Assembly: GCA_003194525.1 (NCBI GenBank)
Contig: NBIV01000097.1
Coordinates: 176,306 to 240,305, forward strand
Length of the DNA stretch: 64,000 bases
Direction: 5' to 3'
Source of the DNA: Gracilariopsis chorda
Lineage: Eukaryota > Rhodophyta > Florideophyceae > Gracilariales > Gracilariaceae
The notes under the pieces were generated by a model. The model made no database searches. It was not told the origin of the DNA and saw only the letters and a list, made by a program, of their open reading frames with translations. Positions within the stretch are counted from its first letter, which is position 1; each line of letters starts with the position of its first letter. This document shows positions 5,451-57,660 of the stretch, in pieces. The position numbers and the translations under genes were made by a program.

Positions 5451-6776
5451 TTACTCTGATTGCAACAAGTTCTCTTCCTTTTCGAACCATTCTGGCGCGT
5501 TCAGCCTCTCCTTGTCCTCGTAGTATCCCAGGTCCTGGCATTGATCCACGAGAACACAGCTCCAATCACTGACCTTTCCCATCGTGCGACGCTTGAAGTA
5601 CACAGTGCCAGACCAAGTGCTGGCGAAATCACCCACAAATACATGCGCATTGATGGCGAGTTCGCGTTCGACAAAATTTTCCATCGCTTCGTCAAGTCCC
5701 CCGACTCGAGGAAGCACTCTGATGTGTGCCTGGAATTCGTTTTCAAGCGATGCCATGGTCTGAGGAGGGACATATGGACTGGCCGCAATGTAGAGAGACG
5801 TGCTGTTTGCGGATCGCATTTTGCGGACAACTGCACCAACCAGCGCTGAGGGTGTAACATAAACGACTGTATCATTGGACCCGATGTTCAGTTTCCTTCG
5901 GATACAAACGCCACCATGTTCGGTGTCGCATTCGTGTTCATCGTATCGTAAATGAAGCAATGTCATACGAGACGCCCACGAGTTGCGCATCATCTCTTTC
6001 ACGATGGGCGCAGCTTCCACGTAGTGAAGCACACTGTATACATACTGGTGGGCACGATGTCCGGAGAAAGAGAATGAATGGCCATCAACAATGACACATG
6101 CATCTCGCAGCTGTCTGAGTTCATGGACAAGTGCTGGATCACCAGCGGTAGAAAACTTCATATGATGCCGGTGTACAGAGATTCTGGACATGGCTCGGTC
6201 TGCACACTGACCGACAGTTTCGGAAGGCTGTTTATCGCCGGCCATCTGACAGACGATCTGAAGCAGCCTGCTTGATGGAAGCAGTTTTCCAGCGCCTCTG
6301 CGCACAAGATATACATGAGTTATGCCCCGGCGACAAGACGATGGAAGTTGTTCTGACAGAGGAGCAAAGCGAGCCATGACGCCAAGATCCCAGAAGTTCT
6401 GCGCCGGATGTTCTTCAGAGCGATGCGGAAAGCGGGGTAGTCGACGCGCTGGTATTGTTGGAGGGACGAGAACGAGACCGGTTTGACGGGCCAGTATGAG
6501 GGCTTGTAACAAGAAGTAAATCTGATTTCCGATGCCGCCATGAGTAACAGTTAGAAGTGCAGGCTGGTGGGAGTGCGGAATGGAGAGCGGGAGATGATGG
6601 GCAATGAGCAAACATAGCGCGAAAACTGCGAGCACGTGGAGGGGTTTAAGCAGACGACGCTTGCTTACGGGAGGTCTGCTTGGAACGATGGAAACCACTC
6701 TGCGTTGCGGCATGGGGAGACGTGTGAAGTAGGGATATGAAGATGGGCTGGAGTCATGTTTGCGGACAGAAGGCAT
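5451..6776 (-). CDS. O-fucosyltransferase-like type II membrane protein (copy 1)
   Basis: The first ATG (6774-6776) gives 441 residues. A cytoplasmic tail rich in Arg/Lys/Pro is followed by one membrane anchor at about 46-62. The luminal domain opens with THGGIGNQIYFLLQAL (about 79-94), the GDP-fucose binding motif type (G-G-x-G-N-Q) seen in protein O-fucosyltransferase-like enzymes. HLRYDEHECD (275-284) matches the second conserved motif (HxR...D/E), and GDFASTWSG (about 382-390) the third. Known relatives transfer fucose from GDP-fucose to proteins or glycans in the ER or Golgi. The acceptor cannot be told from the sequence. A paralogue of exactly the same length lies 675 bp upstream on the same strand. 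Confidence 0.8.
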   Translation of the reverse strand: MPSVRKHDSSPSSYPYFTRLPMPQRRVVSIVPSRPPVSKRRLLKPLHVLAVFALCLLIAHHLPLSIPHSHQPALLTVTHGGIGNQIYFLLQALILARQTGLVLVPPTIPARRLPRFPHRSEEHPAQNFWDLGVMARFAPLSEQLPSSCRRGITHVYLVRRGAGKLLPSSRLLQIVCQMAGDKQPSETVGQCADRAMSRISVHRHHMKFSTAGDPALVHELRQLRDACVIVDGHSFSFSGHRAHQYVYSVLHYVEAAPIVKEMMRNSWASRMTLLHLRYDEHECDTEHGGVCIRRKLNIGSNDTVVYVTPSALVGAVVRKMRSANSTSLYIAASPYVPPQTMASLENEFQAHIRVLPRVGGLDEAMENFVERELAINAHVFVGDFASTWSGTVYFKRRTMGKVSDWSCVLVDQCQDLGYYEDKERLNAPEWFEKEENLLQSE

Positions 6777-7451
6777 CAGAGTGAAGTCTGGCAACTTTCT
6801 TGAATGCTAGTGGCTGATGAACTGCAAGTGTGCGAGAGTTACGATGTGAAATGCAATGGGGGTGGGACTCGCCCTAAAAGGGTTTGTTATGATGTCTATG
6901 ATGTGTCAGCAGCCAACGGAGGAGAAGAGCAAATCCCGTGAGAGCACGACGTGAAACGATGTATACAAGGGCACGTGTGTCACGGGTACAAAGGTAGTCT
7001 ACACAAGAAGTCGTGGAAAGGTCAGGCGTTTTTATAGGGTTGCAAGAAACAAGTACGCTTTGGAAAACTATGAGGGGGCGCGAAGGATCGTGTGTACATA
7101 TGGCGACGAACGATGCGTGTACTGCAGCCGCGACGCACGACAGGGGCCCGTTGTTAAGAAGGTTTGATCTGAACCAACCCAACAGTGTTTCCGACGGTTG
7201 CCGTGCAGACATTTGTCGCAGGGTGGCTACCGGAGTTTCGCCGATCGTAAGTCAAGGATGCTCCACTTTCATCCACTTTCATCAATTTGGCAGCTCTTCC
7301 GCAATGACCTCAAACGTACCTGCACGAAGATGGAACATCTCACCTTTGTACAAAAAGTCCCAAGCTCTTGTTCTGGTGTTGAGCAGGAGTACTTCCCATT
7401 CCGAAATGTTTCTATACCCAGAGCCACGCGTGATGATGGACGAGAGTCACA
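6777..7451. other. Spacer between the tandem fucosyltransferase-like genes
   Basis: Should contain the promoter of copy 1 and the 3' end of copy 2. I see no TATA box, repeat or open frame with a recognisable product. Confidence 0.5.
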
Positions 7452-8777
7452 TCATTCCGAGTGACTTATGTTGTACATCTTCTCGAACCAGTGCGGATTG
7501 TTGAGCTTCCCGTTAAGGGTATGAAATGCCAAGTCGGTGCACAGACCGACGACCTTACAGCTCCACGCACTCTTCTTTCCCATGGTGCGCCTCTTGTAAT
7601 ACACGTTTCCCGACCAAGTACTACCAAAGTCGCCGATAAAAACCTGCGCATTAATCGCAAGTTCCCGTTCCACAAAGTTCACAATCGCTTCATCTGATGC
7701 CTGAAACCGCTCGACAACTTCGATATCCTTGGCGAGCCGTTGTAGTAGAGGCTTCAAGATGCGTGTTGGTACGTAGGGGCTGGCTGCAACGTAGATTGAG
7801 GTGCTCTTCTCAGCATGCATTTTGCGAAGAATAGCGTTCACTAAACCTCCCACCGGAACATACACCATTGTATCATTCTTTCGGGGCTCCAGTTTCCGAC
7901 GGATGCAAACGTTCGTGCGATTCGTATCGCAGTTGTGTTCATCGTAGCGAAGATGAAAAACAGTCATACCCGGTTTCCATAATTTGCGCATGAGCTCCTG
8001 TACATATTCTGATGCTTCCACATAGTGAAGCAAACTGTACAAGTAATTGTTTGCGATTTCGCCGGAAAATGTGTACGAGGGGCCGTCTATGACCACACAT
8101 CCTTCTCGTATCTGCCTCAACTCCTCTAACAGAGAATCATCGCCCGCTAGAGAATGGTCAAGATAGATCTGCTTTATGAGTACTTTCCGTAGCGCTGTTT
8201 CCCCGCACTCTCGAACGCTTATTGGCTGTGTTTGGTTAGGGTCTAGATCGCATGCCAGATGAAGAAGTCCACTAGAAATCTGTGCTTCCACAAGCTTTTT
8301 CCCTCTTTGTAAGAGGAACGCGTTTGTTATGCCGTGGGCACATGATGGTGGCTGCTGTGAGGTCGTGGTGAAGCGGGACATCAATTTCAAGTCCCAGAAC
8401 TTGTCGGCAGGGTGGTCTTTAGAACTGTGTGGAATACCCTGTATATGGCGAGGGGGGATTGATGGGGGTACGAAGATGAATCCTGCTTGGCGAGCGAGCA
8501 TCATAGCTTCCAGTAAGACGTATATCTGGTTTCCAAGGCCCCCATGAGTGACAGTCAGAAGAGCTGGGCGGGATGAAACTTGAGACAGCTCTAGAAGTCG
8601 GGGAATTCTTAAATGCAGAAATGAGACAGCGATAAGTGTGAACAAAGAAAACAAAGACAAGAGCGAGGAAACGCCATGCTTGTCCTTGGACGCGGTTGAT
8701 TTCCGAGCGGTCGCGGTGTTGGGCTGAATGTTCGATGCCTGTGGCGAAATGGATTTACATGAGGTGGAGGAAGGCAT
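7452..8777 (-). CDS. O-fucosyltransferase-like type II membrane protein (copy 2)
   Basis: The first in-frame ATG (8775-8777) gives 441 residues, identical in length to copy 1 at 5451-6776, which supports both start choices. A Ser/Thr-rich cytoplasmic tail precedes one membrane anchor at about 36-56. The GGLGNQIYVLLEAMML motif (from about 79), HLRYDEHNCD and GDFGSTWSGNVYYKRRTMGK align with the same blocks in copy 1. Cys and acidic residues around the second motif are shared (RYDEHxCD...CIRRKL). The two genes are a tandem duplication that has diverged mainly in the tail and stem. As in copy 1, function is inferred from the GDP-fucose-binding family; acceptor unknown. Confidence 0.8.
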   Translation of the reverse strand: MPSSTSCKSISPQASNIQPNTATARKSTASKDKHGVSSLLSLFSLFTLIAVSFLHLRIPRLLELSQVSSRPALLTVTHGGLGNQIYVLLEAMMLARQAGFIFVPPSIPPRHIQGIPHSSKDHPADKFWDLKLMSRFTTTSQQPPSCAHGITNAFLLQRGKKLVEAQISSGLLHLACDLDPNQTQPISVRECGETALRKVLIKQIYLDHSLAGDDSLLEELRQIREGCVVIDGPSYTFSGEIANNYLYSLLHYVEASEYVQELMRKLWKPGMTVFHLRYDEHNCDTNRTNVCIRRKLEPRKNDTMVYVPVGGLVNAILRKMHAEKSTSIYVAASPYVPTRILKPLLQRLAKDIEVVERFQASDEAIVNFVERELAINAQVFIGDFGSTWSGNVYYKRRTMGKKSAWSCKVVGLCTDLAFHTLNGKLNNPHWFEKMYNISHSE

Positions 8778-11700
8778 TGCGGTGAGCGTGAAGAGATGAG
8801 AAGATTGATGTACAGCGGAGTAAGGGATTCGCTGGGGCGTGGAGATGGATTGTAAGCGCGCTGCAGATCGGAGCCTTCCGGTCCACAACTTGAGAAAGTC
8901 CGGGACGGGGGGTGTGATTGGCTGTTTCTAACAAATGCAGTTGCCCTTCATTTTAAGGCGTTGGATTTGCTGATTATTGCCCAAGCCGAGAGATGCGACC
9001 TAAAGTTACCAAGGGTATGCTACAGTGGCATCCGTAGTCTGCTTAAAGTTATCTAGATGCGGAGCGTGTTTTAGCCTTACCATGTCCGACAGTTGCGCAG
9101 GTCTCGATCTTAGTGTACATACAGTACAGGGGGGTAGATTGCTAACCCTTATCGCTACACGGAATAGTGGCACCCTATTCAAAACGGTCATCCTGCGAAC
9201 TATATCAAGTCAGGCATTAATGAGAAGCAACATGCCGCTACAAGCGCAATTGTTTACAACAGCTCAGTAATGAGCATCTGCCGCTGAGCTATAGCCCTCT
9301 CTGATCGTTTAGCCCGAAACGGCGCTATCAACAGCAATCTGTTCAATATCCTTAAACCAAAAAAGTATATCACCCTCCGGTGGTAAGGGAGCAACAATTC
9401 CGTCATCTTTTTCACTGCCACAGTCCATAATATTCTCAGACTCACTCAGTCTGGTCCGTGTCTGGATCGGTTTTGATCGTTCAGTGACCATGGCTGGTTG
9501 ATGGTGCTCGGAAACGGGTCGACACTTAGCAACAGAGATCATGCGAGTGGCAACCGACGACCGGGAGCAAAGTCTCCCCTATAGGTGTGCCACGTGCTGC
9601 GGGGTGGCATTACTTAGAGGGAGGCACTGCTCCAAGTGGCACAATTGCGAGCCTCCCCCCCTGTATCACTTGCGAAGCACGTTGGACCTGAGCACAAACC
9701 CCACCATCCTGGCACTGGCGATGGAACTGCAAACGGAACACAGGTCACTGAACTCAAGGGATAAACCTTCACCCCGCTTTTCCTCATTCATCTCATGGAC
9801 CAACGGTCTTATCTTGCTAGTTGTTTTGAAGCAAATCACTGTACAATCACTACTTGTTACAAGTTGTTCGTAAAAAAAGCGCTACTATATGATAGGATCG
9901 TCAGTCCACCTGCACTTTTTGCGCGGAAGTATCCTAAGCTTCATAGGTATTGCAGTTTCGATACGTGAGTAGGTCGAACCTTTTGAATGCCTGTTTCTAC
10001 TCCATCCTCGCGTTCAAATGCAGGTATAAACTGTCAACGGTGAGTTATGTACGGCAAGTGCACTACGTCCCCGGTTCCTTGTCACGTCAGTGGTACTTGT
10101 TGGGAAGGGGATTTGCGGAACAGTTCGAACGACGACAATTGCATGTTACTGCCCGCCATGATGCTTTGAGTGACGCATACACTGCGTTTTCTGACGTTTG
10201 TATACAAGTCGTAGGTCTGCTTCAAATGCTGTCCTTATAACCCTGATATTCTGTCTCTAGCTAGCGTGTTTGAATACTTTAAGCAGAGACAAGTTCTTTG
10301 ATTAGGACTCCTCCTACCCTTGGTACGACGTTTTCGGAATTAGTTGCGTGCGCCCCATAAACAAACACCAATATCTACATTTTGTCTCAGCCGAAGGAAC
10401 CCCAAAGACAGATGAATCGGAGGGGAACAGCCGCTGTCCTTCTTACGGCTTCGATCCGTTGACAGATGGTCCGATCGTGTGGGGTACGCTGTCAGCTCTT
10501 CTATTGCCATTACTTTCTGTAGGCTTTCTCCCATGTCTTCCTGATCAGGATCAGGGACGCTCAAAGAAAAAGAACCAAAGCGAATCAGCGATTGTGACTG
10601 CTTTGGAACTACAGTTCATTTGTTATATCTTTCCTCAATATTCGAACGAACTTTCATAAACCACCATCACCAAACTCTGAGATAAGTTGCTCGGCTTCAC
10701 AGGCATTGCAACCCAATTGTTGTACACTTGCGAAGGCCGGTAGGGTTCAATAGTTGTCTTCATGTACAGCATTTGCGTTTCGGCGTATCTCAGGTTTCTC
10801 AAGTTCAATGTGGATACTAGCAAGCATTATCTGCTGCTTGGTAAAGCGCTTAATTCCACACCACCTATTTGTAAGATCGCAATAAGCACGAGTTTCAAGA
10901 ATCTCGAGTTCTCTTTGGCCTACGGGCGACTTTTGGAAATGTGTAAATGGACCACTGTAACCAAGGGTGAAGGGATAGAAGGCTAATACTTTATTCTTCT
11001 ACTACTCAGTCCTGTTCTTGTGCAGAATGACCGACTTTAATGACAGCATTTCTTCCAGTTCCATCAAATGCGAAATTGTAAGCAAGACCATGGCGCTGTT
11101 TCCAGCAGTAGAAATGCATGTGATTCGTGAGTGTAAATCGTTGAGACGATGGGACGTGCATTGATATTGGTGGTCTCGAATGTAGATGCAATTTGCTGGA
11201 ACAATGTGTTTGAGGTGCTAAACAAGCTTGACAAAGCAGAATTCAGGAATGCGTAGAACTACAATGCATGTGTTTTCACGGAGAGGTGAGTTTGGGAAGT
11301 GTAAGTGAGATGTGGACGGCAACATGGTGCAGAAGATTGCGCAATGTTGTTCGGGCGCATGGGTGGATGGAGTCATGGATTGTGTTGTATCAGCTGGTGC
11401 TAATACTGTTACTAGACATGCAAAGCGGTGTTTCGAACGTTTCTTTTCATGCGCATCGTTCGGAATTGCTTGTTTGAGGAGGATGGGGAGCAGTTTCGAC
11501 AAGACGGCAAACAGCTCGAATTGAATAGACTGAGAGTGCGCTGCAGGGGGTGATGTATGATGTGATGCTTTTGATTTGAAAGGAAACCTGGCGAGTATAG
11601 TTAGCTGGCCAAACGAATTAGTGTTCGGCGTGAATGACATGACATCGACATGGGGTTGGACATTTGCTTTAGTCAAATCGGTAGAAGGGGTGATAGAAAT

Positions 11701-28262: not shown

Positions 28263-28989
28263 TACACTATCTAAACTACGTGCTGTTAGCCGGGGGCCTC
28301 TTCACGACTTTCTACGAAGGTACTGCCACAGAACGAAGATCAGACCCGGATAGGCTGTGCCGTAGAAGACGGCATGGCCAGGTCTTACGGGGTTCGAGAG
28401 CGCATCCAGGAAGCACGACGGTGACTAATCTTTCTCTCTGTGGCCTCTGAGGCTCGCCGTCCTCTCCGTCAGCATCCGTTCTCCCGTCTTCTTTGTTCTC
28501 AGCTTGCAGCAAGCAGAAGGTGGAACGCTGCACAGCGTTACAAGTGGCACCGGCTGTGCCGGCTGTGTCAGGCGGCTGGCGCTATCTTTAGAAAAGACTT
28601 GTAAACGGAACCAAGTACTTGTGCGTGTAGATCCCGTGAACATGACTGCCTGATTTCTACGATGCCGCAAACCTCCGTTCAGCTCACGTTCAACTGGACC
28701 GGATACCTGTGGGTAGTAGCCCTTGATCGTCCGGCACCGCCTACTGGAGAGTACGGAAAGGATAAAGGTGACTCAAAAACTGCTATGGGGCCCATGATTA
28801 GGCTAACGTTATCGACCTCCATGGCCACGCCGCCAACAGCCCCGTCGTGGCGATTCCAGTACGCAATCGAAAAAAACTCCAGCCAAGTGACACCACGTAT
28901 ATCCTACATGTCTTTCTGATACACACTTTCGTAGTGCTCAACGCAACCGCTCTTCAACGTCCGTGTTCGTCAACATTCACCTCCGCACC
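28263..28989 (-). other. Intergenic stretch with a decayed minus-strand coding remnant
   Basis: Between the Tc1 element and the NB-ARC gene. On the minus strand, about 28900-28680 reads as a 70-codon protein-like stretch (VTWLEFFSIAYWNRHDGAVG ... SLIMGPIAVFESP) that ends in a stop. Lower down, other frames continue with mixed composition towards the transposon. I do not recognise it; it may be the remains of a gene into which the Tc1 element jumped. The NB-ARC promoter must also lie here, but no TATA box is visible. Confidence 0.35.
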
Positions 28990-31900
28990 ATGTCAGGCCT
29001 CGAAGTTGTGGGGCTTGTGTTAGGCCTGCTCGGGCCGCTTGGACAGGCCATAGATCTCACCATCCAAATTCGTCAACGTCGCTCAGCGCAGCGCTCCAAT
29101 TCCCAGGCAACAGATCAGTTGCTAAACCGTTTGAATGAACAAAAACACCAACTATCTCAACTACGCGATGAGCTTTCTCAAAATTCTCTAGCACTTCCAC
29201 CTGTCAACCTCAAGCAATTTCAGTGTGAAATGCGCCGTGTGCATCAACTTTTCGTCCAACTGAGTGCTGCCCTATCTGATATTACTACCCGACTTTCTCC
29301 ACGATTATTCTTGTCGTGCGTGTCGCAATTCTGCGCAGCCACGTCAGTTTCCTCCGATTTGGAAGATATCTCTGCTAAACTGTTCCAAGCCGAACAAATC
29401 ATAATCTCCGTGCGTTCCCTATTTGTGCTTGTGTCTACCATTGAAACGCGAACTGACGAAATTATTAGACATCAATCCGGAAAGATAAACGCACTACAGG
29501 AAACCATTACCGACAGACTCAATGACAACACACTCGCTCTCAATTCACATAACGATATCTTCACTCCATTCAAAGCGAGAGCCTGGGTACCACTCCACAC
29601 GGTTTGCGATTTTGATGCTTGTGACCAAAACGGCAAGCCTGACACTGTTTTAGCCCATTTGAAGCTCCAAGTGTTGTCGGTCGACCAAACTGATAGCTTT
29701 ATGATATCAGTATATGGAGAAGGTGGCATTGGAAAGACCACCACCATCAACGCTCTTTCATTGCACCCTGAAATTCGCACATGCTACGTGGATGGGATCT
29801 ACACCATCACCCTTGGTTTGGATGCCACCGAAGCAACTTTAGTTCTTGAGCTATGCAAGATTGTGCGTCAGTCTGGTGGCCGACGTTTGGCTAACACGCT
29901 TCAAGGAAAGGAGCTAAAAAAAGATGTATTGTTAGGTGCAGCTGACTGGTTTCGAAATAGAAAGTTCTTGCTTGTTGTCGATGACGTGTGGAACATACCA
30001 GGCCAGGGTAAGAACATTATTTATGAACTTTACGATTTTGTGGCAGTGGGCGATCATAGCGCGCTTGTTTACACCACTCGTGACGTAGAGTTGGCTATTT
30101 TGGCCAAGGCGTACAAGTTAACGCGATGGGAAGGGCTTTCTTCACGTAAGCTCCTTCTCAAGTTTGCTGGCTATGTTGATGAGCACCACGACCAGCTCCA
30201 CGAGGATAATGTTATTGACTGCTTGCTTGAAAGGTGTCAAGGCTTACCAGTATTGTTGTCAGTAGTTGGAAGGATCATCGGTGAGACCGTAGCCGCTGTG
30301 GAAGGAGATTCAAAGCTTGTTTGGAAATGGTTCATGACACAACAGCACGAACTGATAGACCTTGAAGTGGACCGCTATGGTTCAGTGAAATCCATCTTCC
30401 TGTCTGCGTTAAGGGCGCTTGACAATTACCATGGAGTTGGAAAATTTCGCTTCGAACTTCGTCACACGTTCGTCGAGATGCACCGCGCTCTGTGTGTCAT
30501 TCAAAAGCAGGAATGGGCGCCATTATCAATTTTAAGTTTTCTATGGAAGTTGGAAGACGAAACACAGGCTGCACAAGTCTTGCGACCTTTCGCCTCAGTT
30601 GGCTTGCTCATCAGCCTATTTAAGGGAGAGGGCGACAAAGCAGTACAAGGGGCTGCGATGCACGACCTTTTTCTTGACTACGAGAAAAGGGAAGCAGAAC
30701 ACCGCGGAGAGATGACAGACTGGCATCGAAGTGTCGTTGACGGCTATGTCAAGAACTGGAGTCTTGGAGACGGTACTGAACATGGGTGTCGGGAGTGGTG
30801 GCGTGTCAATCCCGACGATGCTTCCTATTTCAGACAGAACATTGTACGCCATCTTGGAGAAGCTGGACTGGGGCAAGAGATGGCTACTCTTGTTTCCAGG
30901 CCGCAATGGATTGAAAAACGGGTGAGAGAAGATGGCTTCATGTTGTATCTCCAAGATTTGAATTTTGCAATCAACCGTTGTGAAAAAGATGAGAGTCTGG
31001 GCACAGAGGAAGGCATGAAGACGATTGAGCTCAAGCTTGTCAAGAAAGCTTTGCGTCTGAGTTACGATTACATCCATGACATAAGTGAAGGAGATGTCGA
31101 AGTCTGGTTTCAGTTGCATGCAAGGTTGTTTGACATGGCAGCGATGAATAGATCCATTGAGTCCTATGTCAATTACATAGCAACGCACGCACCGAGACCT
31201 TGGCTACAGCTTGATGGAGGTTGCTTGACACCCACGACAGAAGGAATTGATATTGTTGCTTCGCATGATTCGTCCGTGAGGTGTTTGAAAGTTTCGGCCG
31301 ATAATAAGACTTGGCTTGCCGGGGGAAGTAATGGAAGCCTTCACGGAGGAAGCGTAGGTGAGATCATCGAGGGAAACGTGAAATTTACAGCACACAATTC
31401 CAGTGTCATCTGTGTTGCCCGTAGTGCAAATGGTAAACTTGCTGCTTCTGGTTCGGTTGACGGAAGTCTCAAGATGTGGAAAGTTGATGGGAATGACTAC
31501 TCATTGATTGAAACCGTATATCACACCAGGGCGGTGAACGGAATTGCATTTAGTGCGAATAACCAAATGATTGTTTCATGTGGGCAAGATGGAAAGATTT
31601 GTACATGGAATGTAACGAAGGTACAGGGTGACTCTTCGTCTGTAAATTGTGTGGAGCGTGCACATGAAGGTGGCAACGTTCGAGCAATAGGACTGTTAAA
31701 CGACAATATATTTGTTTCCGGAGGGGATGATAAGAGAATAAGATTCTGGAACTTGGACCTATCTGAGAGAAAAGAATGCGAAATTGGTTGTGGAAGTCGA
31801 GTGTTTGCAATCGCCGTGAGCAGTGATGGACGTACTCTAGCCGCGGGCCTAGAAGACTGCACCGTACGAGTATGGAAAGTGAATGAAGATGGAGAGGTAT

Positions 31901-32940
31901 TAAGTTCCCAACAGATCGAAAGAGTTGAGAATGCTCACCGAGCTTCAGCGCTTGCTATTTATGAAGATAGAGATCTGTTGGTGATCGGAACGATGAATGG
32001 ATTGGTTTCTGTTTGGAACTTGAGAACGAAGACAAAGGTGGGTAGCATGCCACAAACTGGTGGTGCCTCGACAACAGGTGTTGGATTGATAATTGTAGAC
32101 GACGAGTTGTGTTGTATATGGAGTTCCGGCAGTGGTTGGGTTCGTGTATCTGACATATCACGCGATGCAACCGGTGAAGCGCACGGTACTGCGAGAGGTA
32201 TTACGTTGTCAAAATCCGGTGCCGAAGCTGTTCTGGCGAACGAAGATGGATTAATCGAGGTAATTGATATTGCATCACGCACGCCAATCACTGAGGCCTT
32301 TAAAGTGGATCATCCACTGTCCGTAGCTGAATTAACGCCAGATGGAAAGAAGCTGGTGTATGCAGCACATGATGGGTACGTAGGAATCTGGGATGTCAGT
32401 CGTCGTATATGTCTCGGAGAATGGCGTGAGCATACTCGAGCTGTGTTGAGCATGGCAGTGAGTGAGGACGGAAAGTACCTGGCGTCTGCGAGTTCTGATA
32501 ATTCGGTACGTGTGTGGGATTTGGAGAGTGCGGACTTGAAGTCTTCGATTCTGACAGAAGGGACGCAGGCCATGTGGAGCGTGTTTTTCGGGAAGGACTC
32601 TGGAAGAGATATTATCACGGTTAGTGACAATCAGACTGTGGCTTTTTGGCAGGACCGCAAGGAGATTCAGTCGGTTACCCTAAGCAGAGCTGCTTGGCGC
32701 ATGAGTCGAAGAGAAGCGTTTCGGGAGTTTGGAAAGCAAGTGGATTGTTCAGAGGATGATTACGTTGCGTGCATGGTTAATCAGTTAATGCTTGTTGGCA
32801 GTGATGGCACTGTGAAGCGACGTTTGGGATCACTTGAGGGGAATATGTTGCCAAGACATTGGAAATATTCTGCTAGCGAGCACACATTCTGTGTGACGGC
32901 ATCTTCAGGAGTAGTTGTTTATCTCAAACTTCATCAGTAA
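28990..32940 (+). CDS. NB-ARC / WD40 STAND protein (NLR-like), 1316 residues
   Basis: Single exon, first ATG at 28990. The N-terminus has a hydrophobic helix (GLEVVGLVLGLLGPLGQAID) and a Gln/Leu-rich coiled-coil-like region to about 190. The NB-ARC nucleotide switch follows: Walker A GEGGIGKTTT (243-252), Walker B LLVVDDVW (327-334), TTRD (362-365), the GLP motif at 418, and MHD at 557-559. From about 757 to the end lie roughly a dozen WD40 blades (for example KLAASGSVDGSLKMWKV and YLASASSDNSVRVWDLE) forming one or two propellers. Family members are ATP/ADP switches that oligomerise when the sensor domain binds a ligand: Apaf-1, plant NLRs, fungal HET proteins. The architecture matches Apaf-1-like and fungal NB-ARC-WD40 proteins rather than plant NB-LRR. 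A role in defence or cell death is inference. All motifs are intact and the gene is flanked by transposon debris. Confidence 0.9.
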   Translation: MSGLEVVGLVLGLLGPLGQAIDLTIQIRQRRSAQRSNSQATDQLLNRLNEQKHQLSQLRDELSQNSLALPPVNLKQFQCEMRRVHQLFVQLSAALSDITTRLSPRLFLSCVSQFCAATSVSSDLEDISAKLFQAEQIIISVRSLFVLVSTIETRTDEIIRHQSGKINALQETITDRLNDNTLALNSHNDIFTPFKARAWVPLHTVCDFDACDQNGKPDTVLAHLKLQVLSVDQTDSFMISVYGEGGIGKTTTINALSLHPEIRTCYVDGIYTITLGLDATEATLVLELCKIVRQSGGRRLANTLQGKELKKDVLLGAADWFRNRKFLLVVDDVWNIPGQGKNIIYELYDFVAVGDHSALVYTTRDVELAILAKAYKLTRWEGLSSRKLLLKFAGYVDEHHDQLHEDNVIDCLLERCQGLPVLLSVVGRIIGETVAAVEGDSKLVWKWFMTQQHELIDLEVDRYGSVKSIFLSALRALDNYHGVGKFRFELRHTFVEMHRALCVIQKQEWAPLSILSFLWKLEDETQAAQVLRPFASVGLLISLFKGEGDKAVQGAAMHDLFLDYEKREAEHRGEMTDWHRSVVDGYVKNWSLGDGTEHGCREWWRVNPDDASYFRQNIVRHLGEAGLGQEMATLVSRPQWIEKRVREDGFMLYLQDLNFAINRCEKDESLGTEEGMKTIELKLVKKALRLSYDYIHDISEGDVEVWFQLHARLFDMAAMNRSIESYVNYIATHAPRPWLQLDGGCLTPTTEGIDIVASHDSSVRCLKVSADNKTWLAGGSNGSLHGGSVGEIIEGNVKFTAHNSSVICVARSANGKLAASGSVDGSLKMWKVDGNDYSLIETVYHTRAVNGIAFSANNQMIVSCGQDGKICTWNVTKVQGDSSSVNCVERAHEGGNVRAIGLLNDNIFVSGGDDKRIRFWNLDLSERKECEIGCGSRVFAIAVSSDGRTLAAGLEDCTVRVWKVNEDGEVLSSQQIERVENAHRASALAIYEDRDLLVIGTMNGLVSVWNLRTKTKVGSMPQTGGASTTGVGLIIVDDELCCIWSSGSGWVRVSDISRDATGEAHGTARGITLSKSGAEAVLANEDGLIEVIDIASRTPITEAFKVDHPLSVAELTPDGKKLVYAAHDGYVGIWDVSRRICLGEWREHTRAVLSMAVSEDGKYLASASSDNSVRVWDLESADLKSSILTEGTQAMWSVFFGKDSGRDIITVSDNQTVAFWQDRKEIQSVTLSRAAWRMSRREAFREFGKQVDCSEDDYVACMVNQLMLVGSDGTVKRRLGSLEGNMLPRHWKYSASEHTFCVTASSGVVVYLKLHQ

Positions 32941-48178: not shown

Positions 48179-48536
48179 TGAAAGGCGTGGAAATCCCAAT
48201 GATGCTACTCATAGGAGTGTGACGTGGTTACCGTGACGGCTCTACCGTATATGAGTTGGACTCGTACGAAGTGATGCTAATGGGATGGTTTACTGCGTGA
48301 AGTTCCACCTAGGAAGGTAGGAATGTAGATTAGATTGCAGGATGAGTAAACACGTGGAAGCCTGTGCGCCTGTGCGCCTCTGTGCGCCTGTGCGCCTGTG
48401 CGCCTGTGCGCCGATGCGCCTGTGCGCCGACCTCTCAGAGTGCTGACCTCTCAGGGTGCCTGACACCACCCTGGCCACGTATGTGGTCCTGAGGAGGTGT
48501 GCACTATTGTAGTTAATTATTATAATTAAGTTGGAA
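48179..48536. repeat. Left flank of the Helitron array with 8-bp repeat
   Basis: Contains about eight copies of TGTGCGCC at 48363-48428 with small interruptions. No gene. Confidence 0.7.
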
Positions 48537-49683
48537 CAAGTGGAAACGGCCTTCGGCCGTAGGCGGCGCTGCGCGCCGCGTTGTGTTTGTAGCTTTGTGT
48601 GTTTCGTGGCGTTCGGAGGCTCTCCGAACACTTTGCTCGCTTGCACTCGCAATAGCGCTCGTACAACCACGGGGCGCCGTGGCGCCGAGAGTATGTGGAG
48701 CCGCAAGGATTTGTGATTAGGTGCAAAAATTCACTGCAGTGCCAGCCAATGATGAGAAAGCGCGACACGTTGCTTTGTGTAACTGGGTGGCACTGCAGTC
48801 ATTATGGGAGTGCCAGGCAGTAAGCAGGAAGCTTTGCTGCTGCTGCTGCTGCTGAATTTTTTAAGTGGTACGGCGGCGTTGCGCCAAATGGGCGTTTTCC
48901 ATGGGCAAACGGGGGCGTGCAAGACGAAGTTGTGGCGCAACACCTCCATTCAATCAATAACACCCCCATCATACAGGAACAAATACTTATAATGGAGAGA
49001 CAAGTGGAAACGGCCTTCGGCCTTGGGCTGCGCTGCGCGCCGCTGAGTAGAGGTGACTTTGGGGGATCTGCAGGCCGCTTATGCTCGCTAACGCTCGCAC
49101 ACGACCTACATACCCATGAGAGCCGCGACGCCGAAAGTGAATGTAAAATAGGGTAGCAATTGAGCGCCCATGCGATTGTGATTGGCGCGCACTGCAGTTG
49201 TGCATACAGAGTACAGTGGAATGTAATTGGCTGGCAATTCAGTCATTTACTGTAGTGCCAGCCATGCCAGCCACTGATACTTTAGTGCCAGCCACTGAGC
49301 AGTAGCGGCAGTCAAGATGCAGCAGCAGCCAATAAGGTTTGAGCTTTGCTGCTGCTGTTGCTGGTGATGCTGCTGCTGCTGCTGCTGGTGAATTTTTTGA
49401 ATGGTAGGGAGGCGTTGCGCCAAAAGAGGTTTATGCATGCGCTGAATAGGGCGTGCGGGGGTGTTTATTGGCGCAACGCCTCCGTTCAATCAAGATGTAG
49501 GTGCTCATACGCTTGTAAATCTATATAATGGAGAGACAAGAGGAAGCGGCCTTCGGCCGCGGGCGGCGCTGCGCGCCCCGGTGGAGGAGTGATAAACAGC
49601 GGTGAGGAAAAAAGAGGGTGGAGAAAGCAAAAGCAGAAAAGCAAGTAGTTTAATTCAATGAAAGAAGAATGCAAGAGATATGA

Positions 49684-52600
49684 TTACGGTTGTGGAGGGA
49701 TGCAGAACTGAATGGCTTCAGGCAGCACTGGGTTGGCGATGGGAACAGGCATGGGATGAATTGTGTGCGCATTCGAGGGTGTAAGCTGCGGATCATACAG
49801 GAGCAGCACATGGTCGTTCCTTCGAACGCGCTACAATGCGACATACAACTGACCAGCGCAGAAGAAGTTGGATCGCACATCCACAACCAAGCCATCCAAC
49901 GTCTTTCCCTGTCCTTTGTGAACGGTAGCTGCAAACGCGAGACGAATGGGAAACTGCCTTCGAATCATGCGAATATCTGCGAAAGAAAACTCGAAGTCGA
50001 TACGATGCAGGAGCTGTCGTTCGAGCACCTGTCTGTTCTCGTCGAATCGAGCCACCTGCATCGTAAATTGATCTACACGCACGACTACGAACAGCTTTCC
50101 GTTGACCACAGCGGGATGCAGCACGTTCCGAATAACCATAACTGGCACACCAATCTTCAAGTCCAAGTTATGAGGCGGTACTCCAGTAGGCGCATACTGA
50201 TATGCAAACTCTGGGACGATAGAACTGGCAAAGTCAGACTCTGGGTTCTGTCCACGAACAGGTTGCACGGTTGTCGCTGACGGAAGAGTGAAGCGCTCAC
50301 CAGGAAACAGATCTAGCGCTGCCGCATTATGTTCGTCGACCAACTGATTTGTGGAGGCAACGAGCATTTTGCTGAGATCCACATCCTCCTTGCGTCGTGT
50401 TGTGAGCCACTTCCACAGGAATTGGTAGGCGGTTTGCATGCCACCGGTAGATCTGAGTGGTAGTGGAGCGTTGTTGGATATTGTGTTTCGTGCAATGGAA
50501 CGTAACAGCGACGCAAATGCCGGATCATTCGCTTGGCGTACTTGTTCCGTGAGGTATAGCACTTGAACCGAGCATAATGTTCACAGATCACTCTTCCACG
50601 GCAATTCGTTGAGAATGTTTGTGTACACTCGTCTCACATTTCCACTTGGCTCGGCCTCCATGTACACCTGCGGCACCACTGGAAGCAGCTGGGAGTAGTC
50701 GCCGGATAGAACGATGGTCAAGCCCCCAAACGGAGGTGGGTTTTCCATTCCACTGCAGCGAAGATCTTTGAGCAACGCATCCATGAGTTCGAAGAGCTTT
50801 CTTGAGAGCATGGACGCCTCATCCAAGACGAGCAGTTGTATTTCGCGTAGCAGTTCTGCACGTTGAGATCGGGGACCGTACTTTGACACAGTGGCTGTAG
50901 TGTTGCTTGTGCTGTCCCTATCAGCTACACCCAGTCCGAGAAGGCTATGTAAAGTGCGGCCACCTTCGTACAATGAAGCTGCAATGCCTGTTGTAGCAGT
51001 CATTTCGGGGAGCATTCCTTCCGACTCAACGATATCACGAAGGAGGTTGAGCACGTATGTCTTTCCGGTTCCTGCGGATCCTTGCACAAAGAACACGTTT
51101 CCAGGAGTGCTTGTTCGCTCCTGTAGCGCCTGTCGTTGTTGCAATGCGGCAATGACGGTGTCAATGACTTGTCTTTGGCGAGATTTTAAGGTGGCGTACC
51201 TTGCCTGCAAAGTTGACGAATTTCGCACCTCTCGTGCGTCTCGAGTTGTTGTAGCTCGATTCGCCTCAGTCAATGCTGTATGATCCTGCTGTAGGTGTTG
51301 GGAGAAGAAGCTCTGATCGCGAAGCAGTCGTCCTCCGTGCCAGTCTGAGATCTCCACCATACGTCGATACATTTCTTGCTTTCGTTGCTGCTCATCTCCT
51401 GTATGTATGTCACTACATAATGCCTCCCAGTTTTCGACGGCCATTTTTTCTGGGTCTGCGCCTTGTTGGTATAGTGTGACAACCATACGTCGTAGCTCGG
51501 AGGGCGTGCTGTATACCTGCACTGCTTCTTGGAATGCAATATCAAACTCAGATCCGTCCGCGAGCAGTCCGCTTACAATCGCAGTTTCACGATACGTTCC
51601 ATACTGCTGTCCGTTGAAAGTCCTTGCGTCATCATAAGAGCTCGAGCCGTGATTCATGAGCAGCAAGCGCAGAGCAAATAGCTCAATGTCGGACGGTGAA
51701 ACACCTCTGATCCTTGCAACACACTGCTCGTCTTCCGTGCGCTCTACCACGTACATGGGCGGATCGCAGTCGTCTGTGGGCACCTGGGTGCTGTCTACGT
51801 CGTATTGGTTAAGCACGCGGGCTGGAAGCGTGCGATACAATCGAACTTTTTCAAAGTACGAAAGGTAGTCGAGGTTTGCGTATGCTTCGGGCCTTGCAAA
51901 GTATCTCTCCAGTGTAGACGGCTGTGATGCAGAAAGAAGCTGGTTGGGACCTCTCAGCAGAAATGTGTGCTCTCCTTCCAAGTGAATGGCCAGTCGCTCT
52001 ACTTTTGGTACGATGTGAACATGTCGAAACTCGAAAAGTCTCCAAGCTGCATTGACAGCGCCCACCACACGTGCTCGCATGTATGCACGAATGTCGTTCT
52101 GCACCTGCGGCTCTTGTTGCTGCTCGTTGTGTGTGCCTGTCTCATTAGCACCACTCACGTTGGGCACCACCTCCTGAGCTTTGGGCTGCTTAAACGCGTA
52201 CGTCATCAGATAAGCCACTGCGCCCCCTCCTTGCGTGCGCTCTACGTTGATATGAGAGCGGTACTTCTTGGTCAGAGTTGGGTTGTACGGCACTATCTTG
52301 AGGTCATGTTGCCTTCTTCTGCGGTAGACCACGCGATTCGTGCCTTCTTCAATGTACGTCTCCGGCACAATCATGTTGCGGTCGTATCCAAACTTGCAAC
52401 GCCCAGCGCGATTCCGGCAATAGGTGGAGTGGCGGTGCCTGTGCATGGAACGAATGAGGGCACGCAACGCGTCGTCTTCACCGGGAAGAGGAAGTTCTGC
52501 ACGAATCAGCTCGTCGATCACATCAACGTCTTCAATCACGCCTCCTTCGAGCCACACGAGCATGTGGTGATGAGGCACATTGCGCTCCTGAAACTCGAGC

Positions 52601-55099
52601 TTTGATGCAAGCCCCAGGCACTTCAATCCGAAGATGTGCTCCGAGTTCTTCTCCAAGTCCTTCATGAAGTCGTTTGCGTACTGGTTGTACACCCTTGCAA
52701 TCAGATCAGGTCGGTCAAACGGTCGAGGGTGGTTACTCTGTGCCGTAAATGCGCTCCGATTGCTGGTATTCATACCAAGGCGCTGGATGTCCTCTCTCCA
52801 GATGTTCATGGTGATTGTAATGAACAGAGAAGGCGGTCCTCTCCGCGCTACGATCGCCTGTACATCCATGCGCTTGTTATTCCAGTACGCTGCTGAGTTG
52901 ACCTAGTCATCGGGCAGAAATATGCGTCCCATTTGCGCGAACTGGGATGGTGACACATGACTTGTTTGCTGCTGTGCTTGCTGGAGCTCTTGCTCTTGTA
53001 CAATACCCGCCTGTTGTTCTCTCTCCAGGAAACGTAGTCGCATGTCCTCAATGTTTGTGTGCGTGCGTAGCATCCACATCTGCATCAACGGTCCACTGCT
53101 GAGGAGGATGTTGTCTGAGTACAAACGTCGCTTTGCGTTCTGAGCCCAAGTGAGCTTTCGGAGCTTCCATTCGTTGACGCTGAGATCTGAGCTTTGCTGT
53201 GTGGAGTTCCTTGCCTCCAGGAACAGGCCGATGTCAAATGGTTCGTGCTGATCACCGTACGGGTAGAGAAGAGGGAAAGTGCCCTTCTCTGCAAGTTTGG
53301 ATGCCAGTTTTAGAAGTCGGTACCGCACTTGCGCATTGTTTGCGGCATTCGCAGTCGCCCCTGCTTCAGCAGCAGCAGCGCTCGTCACTGCAGCGTGCTC
53401 TTCGGTTACGGTTCCTTCTACCAAGCGCGGTAATTGAGACTCCACTCGATACAGGCCAGTTGGATCCACGACGAGCGTTCTCATCATGGTTGGCCCGCCA
53501 CCAGGAGCATCTTCAGGGAGAGGCCCAGCACCTGCGTGAGGAGCACTGACTGTGGCACTTCGGGTTCCTTCGTAACCACGTACGACTACTCCCTCTTCTG
53601 CTGCCTGCATGCTGATATCGACGGCGGTATCTGCATTTTGTTGTTGTTGTTGCGTGCTAAGCATGGATCGGTACCGCTCACGCACCACTTCTGGCTTGGG
53701 CTGGATCACATCGTACAACTTGGGCACGATGTCTCGTACGTTGATGTCTTGAATGAACGCACGCAAATTGGCACGCGCATAGTGAGAGGGATCCAAGGAA
53801 GGCAGACCAGTACCCCACAGAAAGCTGTAGCGCGTGTTGTTCTGGTTCTGCGCGGGCAGAGCGAGAGCTGCGTTGCCCTCAAGTCTGAGAAAGGAGGGAC
53901 CGCCTCCCGTCACATACGACATGTCCATGAGCGCTTGCGTCGTCGCGAAGAGCGTATTCAAGTTGAGTAAATGGCTGTGGAAGGCTCTCAGGCTATAAAG
54001 ACTGCGAACCAACTTACTGCTATGCCTTTTGCGGAACGTGACCCCATCCTGACATTCTTTTCATTCCACAGCACACTCCAGTGACCTCTGTGCCAAGCAA
54101 AACACAACCGCAATACTTGCAGCTGTGAATTTTCAATGTCCAGTCCGCTTACGGGCAGGAGGAGAGCGTGTGTGAGTGTTCGCCGCATCTTCCGCATCGC
54201 CTTTGACCTGCAGTGGGAAGCGTCTCAAACTCCGGCACGCTTGCACGGATGGCCGGATCATTCCTCGCCTGAGCTGCCACGGAATCCCACGCATAGTACA
54301 CGCGATAGAGTCCTCGATCAGGACGCCCAGCACAGTGCATGACCGTCATATCAAGCTGTTGCTGTGGCTGATGCTGCGGCTGGTGTCAGGGAGCCGGTGT
54401 GATCTCATCCGCTTCCACCTCCATCGGAATGGACATCTGTTGTTCTTCCTGTTCAGCTTGTGGCAACGCAGGCTGCGGCGGCGGGTGTGAGGGAGCCGGG
54501 TTGATCTCATCCTCTTCCACTTCCATCGGGACTGGCATCTGTTCTTCCTCTTTTTCAGCTTGTGGCAGAGCAGGCTGCTGTGATGGCGGTGGCTGTGAGG
54601 GAGCAGGGATGATCTCATCCTCTTCCAATTCCATCGCAATAGGCATCTGTTCTGCAGGCATCGGTGGGAGAGGGGGAGGCATCGGAGGCGGTGGAATGGG
54701 ACTTGGAAGGCCTCTCACAAACTCCAGAAATCCAGGAATTGGGCACGATGTTGGTAGATCTGTGGCAGCGGACCCACTGGCTCCAGCGGCGCTTGTGCTA
54801 ACTGCTGCTGCAACCGAAGTAGGTGCAGGAGTAATTTCGTCTTCTTCAACCACTGGAACAATAGGTCGTTGAACGTGTGCTCCGCTCTCATTTACTCGCA
54901 ACTCATCTGGAGATGTAGGAGCTGGTTCTCTTCGGGGTCTTCCAGCTCCTGCCCGTGCTCCACCACTGCCGACGCGACGACCACCAGCGTTTTGCCTTGA
55001 ACCGCCTGCGTTCAACCTGGCACCTCCAGAATTGTCTCTGGCACCTCCCGAGTTAGATCGGATGCCACCAGAGTTCAGAGGTCGCCCTCCTCTCGTCAT
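49684..55099 (-). pseudogene. Helitron Rep/PIF1-like helicase gene, broken
   Basis: ATG at 55097-55099. The N-terminal part has GG-S/A-R-x-N repeats, then three acidic units (EEDEINPAPS type), then a zinc-knuckle-like C-G-R-C-G-E-H-S-H segment near 54170. After a frame change the main frame (from 54012) runs through LLYPYGDQHEPF and FITITMN to the Rep core: HHHMLVWL and the two-Tyr motif AYLMTYAFK. The PIF1 helicase follows: Walker A GSAGTGKTYVLN, LLVLDEASML and LSGDYSQLLPV. It ends at TAA 49684-49686. In-frame stops are TAG 52903-52905 (just before the Rep core), TGA 50581-50583, and TAG 49831-49833 inside the last helicase motif (YVAL-stop-RVR); another TGA ends the N-terminal frame at 54386. 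Rep nicks and rolls the element, and the helicase unwinds it. This copy cannot make the full protein. Confidence 0.9.
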
Positions 55100-55824
55100 T
55101 TCAATTTACAAAAGAAAAGAAAAAAACAATTCTATGTTTTTAAACCGTTAAAAAATTTGCCAGAGTTCCAGAATAATTCCCAATAAAACACAAAGTTGAA
55201 AGTGAAAAAACTGGTTGCAGTTTGTTGCGTTGCACCCACCGGGCCTAGTCGCATGCAGCAATTAAAAACAAGTTGCTGCAAGGCTTATATTTACCCGATG
55301 CAGTCGTGCGCAGCACAGGGACTCTCGACACACTCCTGTTGGATTATGACGGGCGGAGTGTGCCCAGCCGGTTTTCAAGCCGTTTGATGTTTAACCCGCG
55401 TCCGGTCGTAAGGATTGGTCTGCCTTTACTCACACACCGAAATGTGCTTTCCGGCCCCAAGAGGTACGACACGGCGGCCGCCCCGGACCCTGCACAGCAA
55501 GCTGGTATTAGGTCCGGTAAACCCTCAGACTTCCTGATCGCCGTCAAACGACCAGTATACCACAGAGGAGCACCTGACTTTTCCCAGATCCGTGGTACTT
55601 AGTGGGTTACTCTTGTGGCGACCTGCACACGAGCTCGGCCTTGCCTAGGTCCCAGGCCAGCAAACAGTGCCCAAAGTAGCAAAAGGTTACGACACTGCGC
55701 TATTGGCCATGCCTGAATGGGATGGAAAATAGTGGTTAGGGTCAGCAAGCGAGATGCATTTGGCACTGCGCCAGTGCAGTATATACGTCTGTTGCAGGCA
55801 AGTCTGCAATGAAACTTCAGTATA

Positions 55825-55904
55825 CACTGCACTGGCGCAGTGCAATTTGCCACGTGTCGGAATGCACTGCACTGGCGCAGTGCAATTTGCCACGTGTCGG
55901 AATG
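55825..55904. repeat. Exact 40-bp tandem duplication
   Basis: Two identical 40-bp units, each with the palindrome TGCACTG-GCG-CAGTGCA, in the non-coding part of the long Helitron unit upstream of its gene. Confidence 0.9.
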
Positions 55905-56649
55905 AACAGGCGGGGTTTTGCTGCTGAGTGGCTGGCACAACAATTTGATTGTATTGCAAGCCATTCAGCAGCCATTGCACAGTCAACTTGCAGCAGCAGC
56001 AGCTAATTAACTGAACGCTTTGCTGCTGCTGCTGCTGCTGAATTTTTTTAATGGTGGGGAGGCGTTGCGCCAAATGGGCGATTTGGATGGGCAAACGGGG
56101 GCGTGCAAGAGGATTTTGTGGCGCAACGACTCCATTCAATCAAGAACACCCCCTCATAGAGGAACAAATACTTATAATGGAGAGACAAGTGGAAACGGCC
56201 TTCGGCCGTGGGCGGCGCTGCGCGCCGCGTTGTGTTTGTAGCATTGTGTATTTCGTGGCGTTCGGAGGCTCTCCGAGCACTTTGCTCGCTTGCGCTCGCA
56301 ATAGCGCTCGTAGAACCACGGGGCGCCGCGGCGCCGAGAGTATGTGGAGCCGTAGGGATTTGTGGTTAGGTGCGTAAATTCACTGCAGTGCCAGCCAATG
56401 ATGAGAAAGCGCGACACGTTGCTTTGTGTAACTGGGTGGCACTGCAGTCATTATGGGAGTGCCCGGCAGTAAGCAGGAAGCTTTGCTGCTGCTGCTGCTG
56501 CTGAATTTTTTAAATGGCAGGGAGGCGTTGCGCCAAATGGGCGATTTGCATGCGCAAACGGGGGCGTGCGAAGCGAATTTGTGGCGCAACGCCTCCATTC
56601 AATCAAGAACACCCCCCTCATAGAGGAACAAATACTTATAATGGAGAGA

Positions 56650-57660
56650 TTGTACCTACTTAAGTGAGCGCGACCTCATCGTCGCGAGCACTAAGTAAAG
56701 TTAAACCGACACTTCGGTCATTCATATCTGTTTAGTTTGACCTGAGGTATCCGGCTCTGGATTGTGATGTCGTTGTGCCGTACTACTTCCCGCGGAGGGT
56801 CACAGCATTTGGTTCGCTCAATTCAAACGCTCGTTAAGTATACAGATACTCTGTGTTATAATTTTCGTGTGACATTTATCTACCGTGTGTTACTAGTATC
56901 GCCCCTGTATTGGATATTTTGTCCGATACATCCCGTCCATGTGCACCCTCTTTCGAATCTGTTTTCGCTCTCATCACGACCCGCCAGGTTGTACCATTTT
57001 AGTTGGTTCTTTCCCCTTTTTTCCCTTTGTCCCGTTGGATTCTCTGTGGGCTGGAAAAGCACTTACACGGATTTGTACATTAAGTTGACCAGCTGGTATC
57101 CAGAGTCTGGGTATTATCTTCAACGATATAGCCGGAAGCCACCTGGTGGTTTTGATCCCTGAACACTGTGTGTTACGGAGGGAACTGTAGCTGTGCCTAC
57201 CTTGCAAGAGAGCAAAGCCGTGAACACCTTGAGTGAATCTCCCGCCCATGGATATTGCTCCACACAAAAAAGAGCTCTAACCAAGGTGCAGACGAAGCAC
57301 GTTAAATGTATTTGACTTCTCTAACCCAAGTAGTCATCTTCAACCTTTTCAATCACACCTATCACACGATTCGAAGAACGGACTTCCAACTTTATCACAA
57401 AAACTTGGAACCTACAGTCACCACCCATACAGCGTTTCGCAGTCGCCAAAAATCCCACCACCCCACGCCGAGCACCATCCAACTCACGGCACCCCCCCTC
57501 TCCCCTCCCAGCCACACTAGCACAAGCAAGACATTACCCAGATTCTTCTCAATGCAAAGTAGCCCATAAAAATATCCTGAGAAACCTGAACACCCACAAC
57601 AGTATCAAATCGCTTCCACCACACTTCCAACCACTCGCACATGCCATGATGTCTTTCAGA
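56650..57660. other. Right flank of the Helitron array
   Basis: No gene. A CGCGAC/GTCGCG hairpin lies near 56670. TGGTATCCAGAG at 57094 resembles an initiator-tRNA primer binding site but no supporting LTR pair is visible. From about 57310 the plus strand is A/C-rich, as at 46050-48180. Confidence 0.4.

Follow-up and report, generated by a model that had tools for sequence, protein, structure and literature searches.

Four transposon units that we assign to the Helitron superfamily (RepHel) lie directly against one another in a single orientation at positions 48537–56649 of the window (the whole 64-kb stretch of DNA that was analyzed). They are of three related kinds with the same end signals, as the alignments and end structures described below show, and we see about an even chance that the array was built up by one insertion after another, each new element entering precisely at the 5′ end of one already in place. 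Units were delineated by direct reading and a repeat search, cut out of the window and aligned pairwise. All four are on the minus strand, which is the coding strand as defined by the orientation of the RepHel gene, and zero bases separate them. In 5′–3′ order on this strand they are U4 (464 bp, 56186–56649), U3 (6,649 bp, 49537–56185), U2 (536 bp, 49001–49536) and U1 (464 bp, 48537–49000). U4, the 5′-most unit, and U1, the 3′-most, were classed as non-autonomous Helitrons from alignments (to U4 and U3 in the case of U1). U2, also non-autonomous, has common ends, a differing 5′ region and a largely distinct interior, and U3 carries a decayed RepHel gene, recognized by alignments, profile and structure matches, and stop positions. 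With its units all pointing one way and joined 3′ to 5′ with nothing between them, the arrangement qualifies as a tandem array, a term for at least two Helitrons so placed. A sequence-only reading had described four head-to-tail units without intervening host bases; its boundaries and order were confirmed by reading and alignment, and the base-exact abutment of four Helitron units is real.

On the minus strand, TCTCTCCATTATA forms the start of every unit, and TTCC(A/T)CTTG forms the 3′ terminus of every unit, following a hairpin. The three internal junctions are exact joins that all read G|T. By direct reading, the array is bordered on the plus strand by a host A at 48536 and a host T at 56650, so that the outer flanks together give A|T, with no target duplication in this one array. 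The flanks support host A|T as the likely pre-insertion site, as had been proposed for these two bases. The whole window was scanned for the end patterns, allowing up to two mismatches (up to one for the hairpin core), and beyond the units' own ends this returned a weak 5′-type match at 51904, inside U3, and a weak 3′-type match at 28541, outside the array. BLAST (E 1e-3) detected no copies of the units outside the array in the 64-kb window. About 100 bp beyond the left edge of the array is a short GCGCCTGT-type minisatellite (48352–48435), and an ORF in the array flank matched no Pfam family.

Both ends of the units contain sequences that can pair, as judged by pair counts and folds on the minus strand. 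In U1 the 3′ terminal hairpin (48546–48560) has a 6-bp stem and a GAA loop and lies 9 bases from the end; its counterparts are at 49010–49024 in U2, 49546–49560 in U3 and 56195–56209 in U4. All six pairs are present in U1, U3 and U4, and five of six in U2. In U3, an A-T pair has become G-C by changes on both sides of the stem, a single event among four sequences. A second hairpin just upstream of the terminal one retains 7, 6, 6 and 7 of 7 pairs in U1–U4. At the other end, U4 has a 5′ subterminal inverted repeat with 16-base arms and a 44-base loop (56521–56596; 15 of 16 pairs), and equivalents are found in U1 (48872–48947; 13 Watson-Crick pairs and one G-T of 16), U2 (49408–49483; 16/16) and U3 (56058–56133; 14/16). 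Fold z-scores for U1–U4 were mixed, both for the 5′ structure (−1.06, −6.28, −1.80 and −2.83) and for the 3′ end (−2.59, −0.89, −1.77 and −2.87). Inverted repeats common to both ends of a unit were not found above chance when the first 150 bases were compared with the last 80: the longest exact inverted match was 5–6 bases in the four units, a length reached by 216–298 of 300 shuffles, and imperfect repeats were sought only at 20 bases or more. The claim that the 6.65 kb unit has the same ends as the short ones is borne out, as the TCTCTCCATTATA start and the hairpin with its CTTG end occur in all four.

Between these ends the units differ, and as judged by alignment they represent three kinds rather than repeats of one unit, with U1 and U4 as the only like pair, and a non-adjacent one. 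U1 and U4 are 94.0% identical, with 28 substitutions over 464 positions and no gaps (15 of 185 positions in the 5′ region). Their equal length had been noted correctly, although 28 differences make the term near-identical generous. Similarity between U3 and this pair extends over about 170 bp at the 5′ end (90.6% identity to U1, 92.9% to U4) and 47 bp at the 3′ end (87.2% to U1). No part of U3 convincingly matched the ~250-bp interiors of U1 and U4 (best E 0.19), and we therefore rejected the idea that the two are plain internal deletions of U3. By its sequence U2 is a clearly diverged subfamily: 58 of 184 aligned 5′ positions are changed relative to U1, and the figure against the other units is 51–58 of 184. 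What it has in common with them is the opening 13 bases, the 5′ stem and the 3′ end. In a comparison run with no low-complexity filter, its interior gave short weak matches to U3, the best being 50 bp at 76% identity (E 5e-4).

The gene remnant of U3 extends over 49686–55099 on the minus strand, as delimited by stop readings, translation and Pfam matches. Its firm part occupies one frame from approximately 54060 downward, with in-frame stops at 52905, 50583 and 49833 and a presumed natural stop at 49686. For the N-terminal part we infer a different reading frame, which opens at an ATG (55099) and is broken by stops at 54388 and 54151. A frame change probably occurs near 54.02–54.06 kb, an intron there being the alternative; further stops in the N-terminal frame (54022, 54016 and 53995) were taken to lie below it. 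The pieces between stops were searched separately against Pfam and solved structures. In a 773-residue piece, Pfam recognized PIF1 (E 3.8e-37) as well as Helitron_like_N (E 4.3e-20); the piece after it matched Pif1_2B_dom (E 9.3e-8). Neither N-terminal piece had a Pfam match above cut-off, and no Pfam family was found for the stretch that two stops bound in the presumed N-terminal frame or for a frame of 109 residues in non-coding U3 sequence. Inside the PIF1 match is the helicase stretch GSAGTGKT (51058–51081, minus strand), which we take to be Walker A. The best solved-structure match of the 773-residue piece was Helraiser (7LCC, E 1.5e-49), in which PHHHMLVWL (52549–52575, minus strand), containing the HUH motif named in the literature, aligned with PHAHILLIL, and the two-tyrosine motif YLMTY (within AYLMTYAFK, 52189–52215, minus strand) aligned with YLFKY. 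These matches make a firm case that the U3 gene is RepHel.

A fusion of Rep, with HUH and two tyrosines, to a PIF1-like helicase was found in U3 only, where it is interrupted by stops. The gene is decayed, with three firm in-frame stops and probably two more plus the frame change, and as read here a complete transposase is encoded by none of the units. The proposal that the 6.65 kb unit bears a Rep/helicase gene holds for the identity of the gene; its decay had gone unmentioned. A reassigned stop codon was rejected as an explanation, as TAG, TGA and TAA all interrupt the reading. Two repeat features were also observed in U3. Three tandem copies of approximately 102–108 bp, at 54372–54683 in the presumed N-terminal part, encode an acidic, proline-rich repeat. 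Upstream of the gene, at 55756–55896, a palindromic GCACTGGCGCAGTGC-type motif occurs in two 40-bp direct copies and one inverted copy and is perhaps a binding site.

The RepHel match, 5′-TC, 3′ hairpin and A|T flanks support the identification of the units as Helitrons. Compared with canonical Helitron1 features, all four units begin with TC, and the flanks of this one array indicate insertion between A and T without duplication; the hairpin, quoted at ~10–12 bases before the 3′ end, is at 9 bases in all four, one base short of that range, and the terminus is CTTG in every unit in place of CTRR. Features of Helitron2/Helentron elements were absent: the flanks are A|T rather than TT, and none of the four units has subterminal inverted repeats common to its two ends. 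The local 5′ inverted repeat of the four units does not appear among canonical Helitron1 features as described, and Helentron-type elements have related ones.

Several described systems resemble the array in part. Helraiser (Helibat1), a Helitron1 from bats, shares the RepHel protein, 5′-TC, 3′ hairpin and A|T target without duplication, as far as its published descriptions go; unlike it, the units here end in CTTG rather than CTAG, all four have a 5′ subterminal inverted repeat, and the gene is decayed. HELPO2 of Pleurotus ostreatus is alike by description in its AT target, subterminal hairpin and CTTG 3′ end (PMC4289320), and the word 'tandem' is absent from the text of that paper. CTTG ends are also described for maize Helitrons and some Helraiser events (PMC4778049). 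Helentron, Helitron2 and DINE-1 elements, as described, likewise have an inverted repeat near the 5′ end and a 3′ stem-loop, but they insert at TT and have subterminal inverted repeats at both ends, whereas here the target is A|T and no such repeat is common to the ends.

PMC5876387 cites tandem Helitron arrays and head-to-tail junctions from plants and bats, and tandem or adjacent Helitrons are described from bats, Bombyx mori, maize, rice (CentHel) and Metarhizium acridum (three in tandem). Distantly related Helitrons are described as directly abutting in bat and maize. Judged against those descriptions, the present array is set apart by one RepHel-bearing unit among three short ones that belong to two subfamilies, and by its base-level resolution. 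According to the sources consulted, the tandem arrangement, the CTTG end variant and both rival mechanisms are already published, and this locus is another such array. In the literature searched, which left most subscription journals outside its scope, we found no published test that uses unlike units as labels. Exact-pattern scans, which are blind to diverged relatives, gave no viral contigs with the 5′ end, the 773-residue RepHel piece or the 3′ end; among genome contigs, the protein piece gave 10 pattern matches, none of them confirmed, and the 3′ end gave none.

How might unlike units come to abut so exactly? The 5′ junction of a resident element, host-A|TC, would combine the launch nick of the transposase with an A|T target that is followed by an A+T-rich stretch. 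Entry at this point would convert host-A|TC into host-A|new...CTTG|TC-resident, leaving no host base between the elements; it would also fix the head-to-tail orientation and restore A|TC at the outer edge. Growth would proceed from the 5′ edge because occupied internal junctions become G|T and are no longer AT targets, and the order of arrival would be U1 first, followed by U2, U3 and U4. A+T content is 75% in the opening 20 bases of each unit and 85% in the 20 host bases that follow the array's 3′ end, compared with 49% for the window on average. For Helraiser, available accounts describe a preference for AT sites whose surroundings are rich in A+T, above all on their 3′ side, and in vitro cleavage of single-stranded DNA by the transposase between the flank and 5′-TC; they also describe cleavage at other places in the ends and none on double-stranded DNA. 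Since 46 of 1,751 reported Helraiser insertions were not at AT, G|T junctions would not be absolutely closed.

We computed the probability that three untargeted insertions would all fall at the 5′ junction in the same orientation as approximately 2.8e-7, assuming that every AT is used equally in both orientations and that each insertion falls within the cluster or at its edge. Either insertion was targeted, then, or the units came in together as one block. A tentative extension, which we hold to be possible rather than probable, is that the transposase prefers the 5′ end (A|TC) of a resident relative, across subfamilies, and that the order of the stack records arrival, with the newest unit at the 5′ edge. 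If the launch site were also a preferred landing site, orientation and the missing host bases would be explained without terminator failure. Insertion order, targeting and the separate arrival of each unit are what we infer under this scheme. The existence of three kinds of unit favors separate insertions, as copying of one unit cannot give them, and the mixed array is explained a little better by serial insertion than by uncontrolled copying of a single element. Serial insertion predicts that U1 is the oldest unit, but no such age order was visible in the 5′ differences that are informative among U1, U3 and U4, of which there are 20. Private changes numbered 9 in U1, 6 in U3 and 5 in U4 (chi-square p 0.52; U1 vs. 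U4, p 0.42), a result equally consistent with one-time arrival. Serial insertion and arrival as a block are both compatible with this locus taken by itself.

Arrival as a block could result from rolling-circle read-through, including template switching, past a weak 3′ terminator into neighboring Helitrons, with the multi-unit strand inserted at once. We consider this the foremost rival and a real, if minority, possibility. It is the published explanation for the bat and Bombyx mori arrays in the sources available, and for Helraiser its frequency is described as measured: about 11.7% of events read through the 3′ end when the element was intact, and at least 36% when the hairpin was missing. 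The U2 terminal hairpin is short of one of its six pairs, although the other three are intact, and the comparable counts of private changes among U1, U3 and U4 fit simultaneous arrival. Against this, read-through needs unlike elements that were already adjacent at the source and so merely moves the question, and BLAST detected no duplicated multi-unit block within the window. Read-through or a multiply copied circle repeats one unit, and therefore neither alone is adequate for unlike units. Read-through or template switching had been suggested from the sequence as the cause; it is possible, but it is insufficient alone for neighbors of three kinds in which U1 and U4 stand apart and differ by 6%. 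Short units flanking the long one on either side would also be expected from successive 5′-edge insertions.

Homologous exchange between the common Helitron ends, through unequal crossing-over or gene conversion, seems an unlikely way for the array to have been built or reshaped. The differences between U1 and U4 are mildly clustered and could reflect exchange: 12 of the 28 fall in unit positions 59–136 (48865–48942 in U1, 56514–56591 in U4), and with random placement 12 in 80 bp was reached in 84 of 3000 trials and 15 in 120 bp in 80 of 3000. Several window sizes were tried, however, and at 40 bp the clustering was unremarkable (7 differences, reached in 825 of 3000). The common ends are also short (~170 and 47 bp), and transposition directly accounts for junctions that are, without exception, exact end-to-end joins.

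A concatemer, formed by several rounds of replication on one Helitron circle, is very improbable. Helitron circles or joined ends are described in the literature consulted, but the product would repeat one unit, which is contradicted by lengths of 464, 536, 6,649 and 464 bp and by three interior kinds. A pure concatemer was accordingly rejected for the whole array; a dimer that was later split could explain U1 and U4 only. Least credible of all is an assembly artefact joining dispersed repeat copies, as repeats are prone to misjoining but even the most alike units differ by 6% and the host sequence on the two sides of the array gives a proper A|T.

Elsewhere in the 64-kb window, Rfam searches at gathering scores and a tRNA scan gave no matches. 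Two related long ORFs are present on the minus strand at 5451–6806 and 7452–8927 (65.5% DNA identity over 574 bp), the first of which has a weak O-fucosyltransferase match below the Pfam cut-off. An open frame of 1,349 residues at 28891–32940 contains an NB-ARC domain and WD40 repeats.
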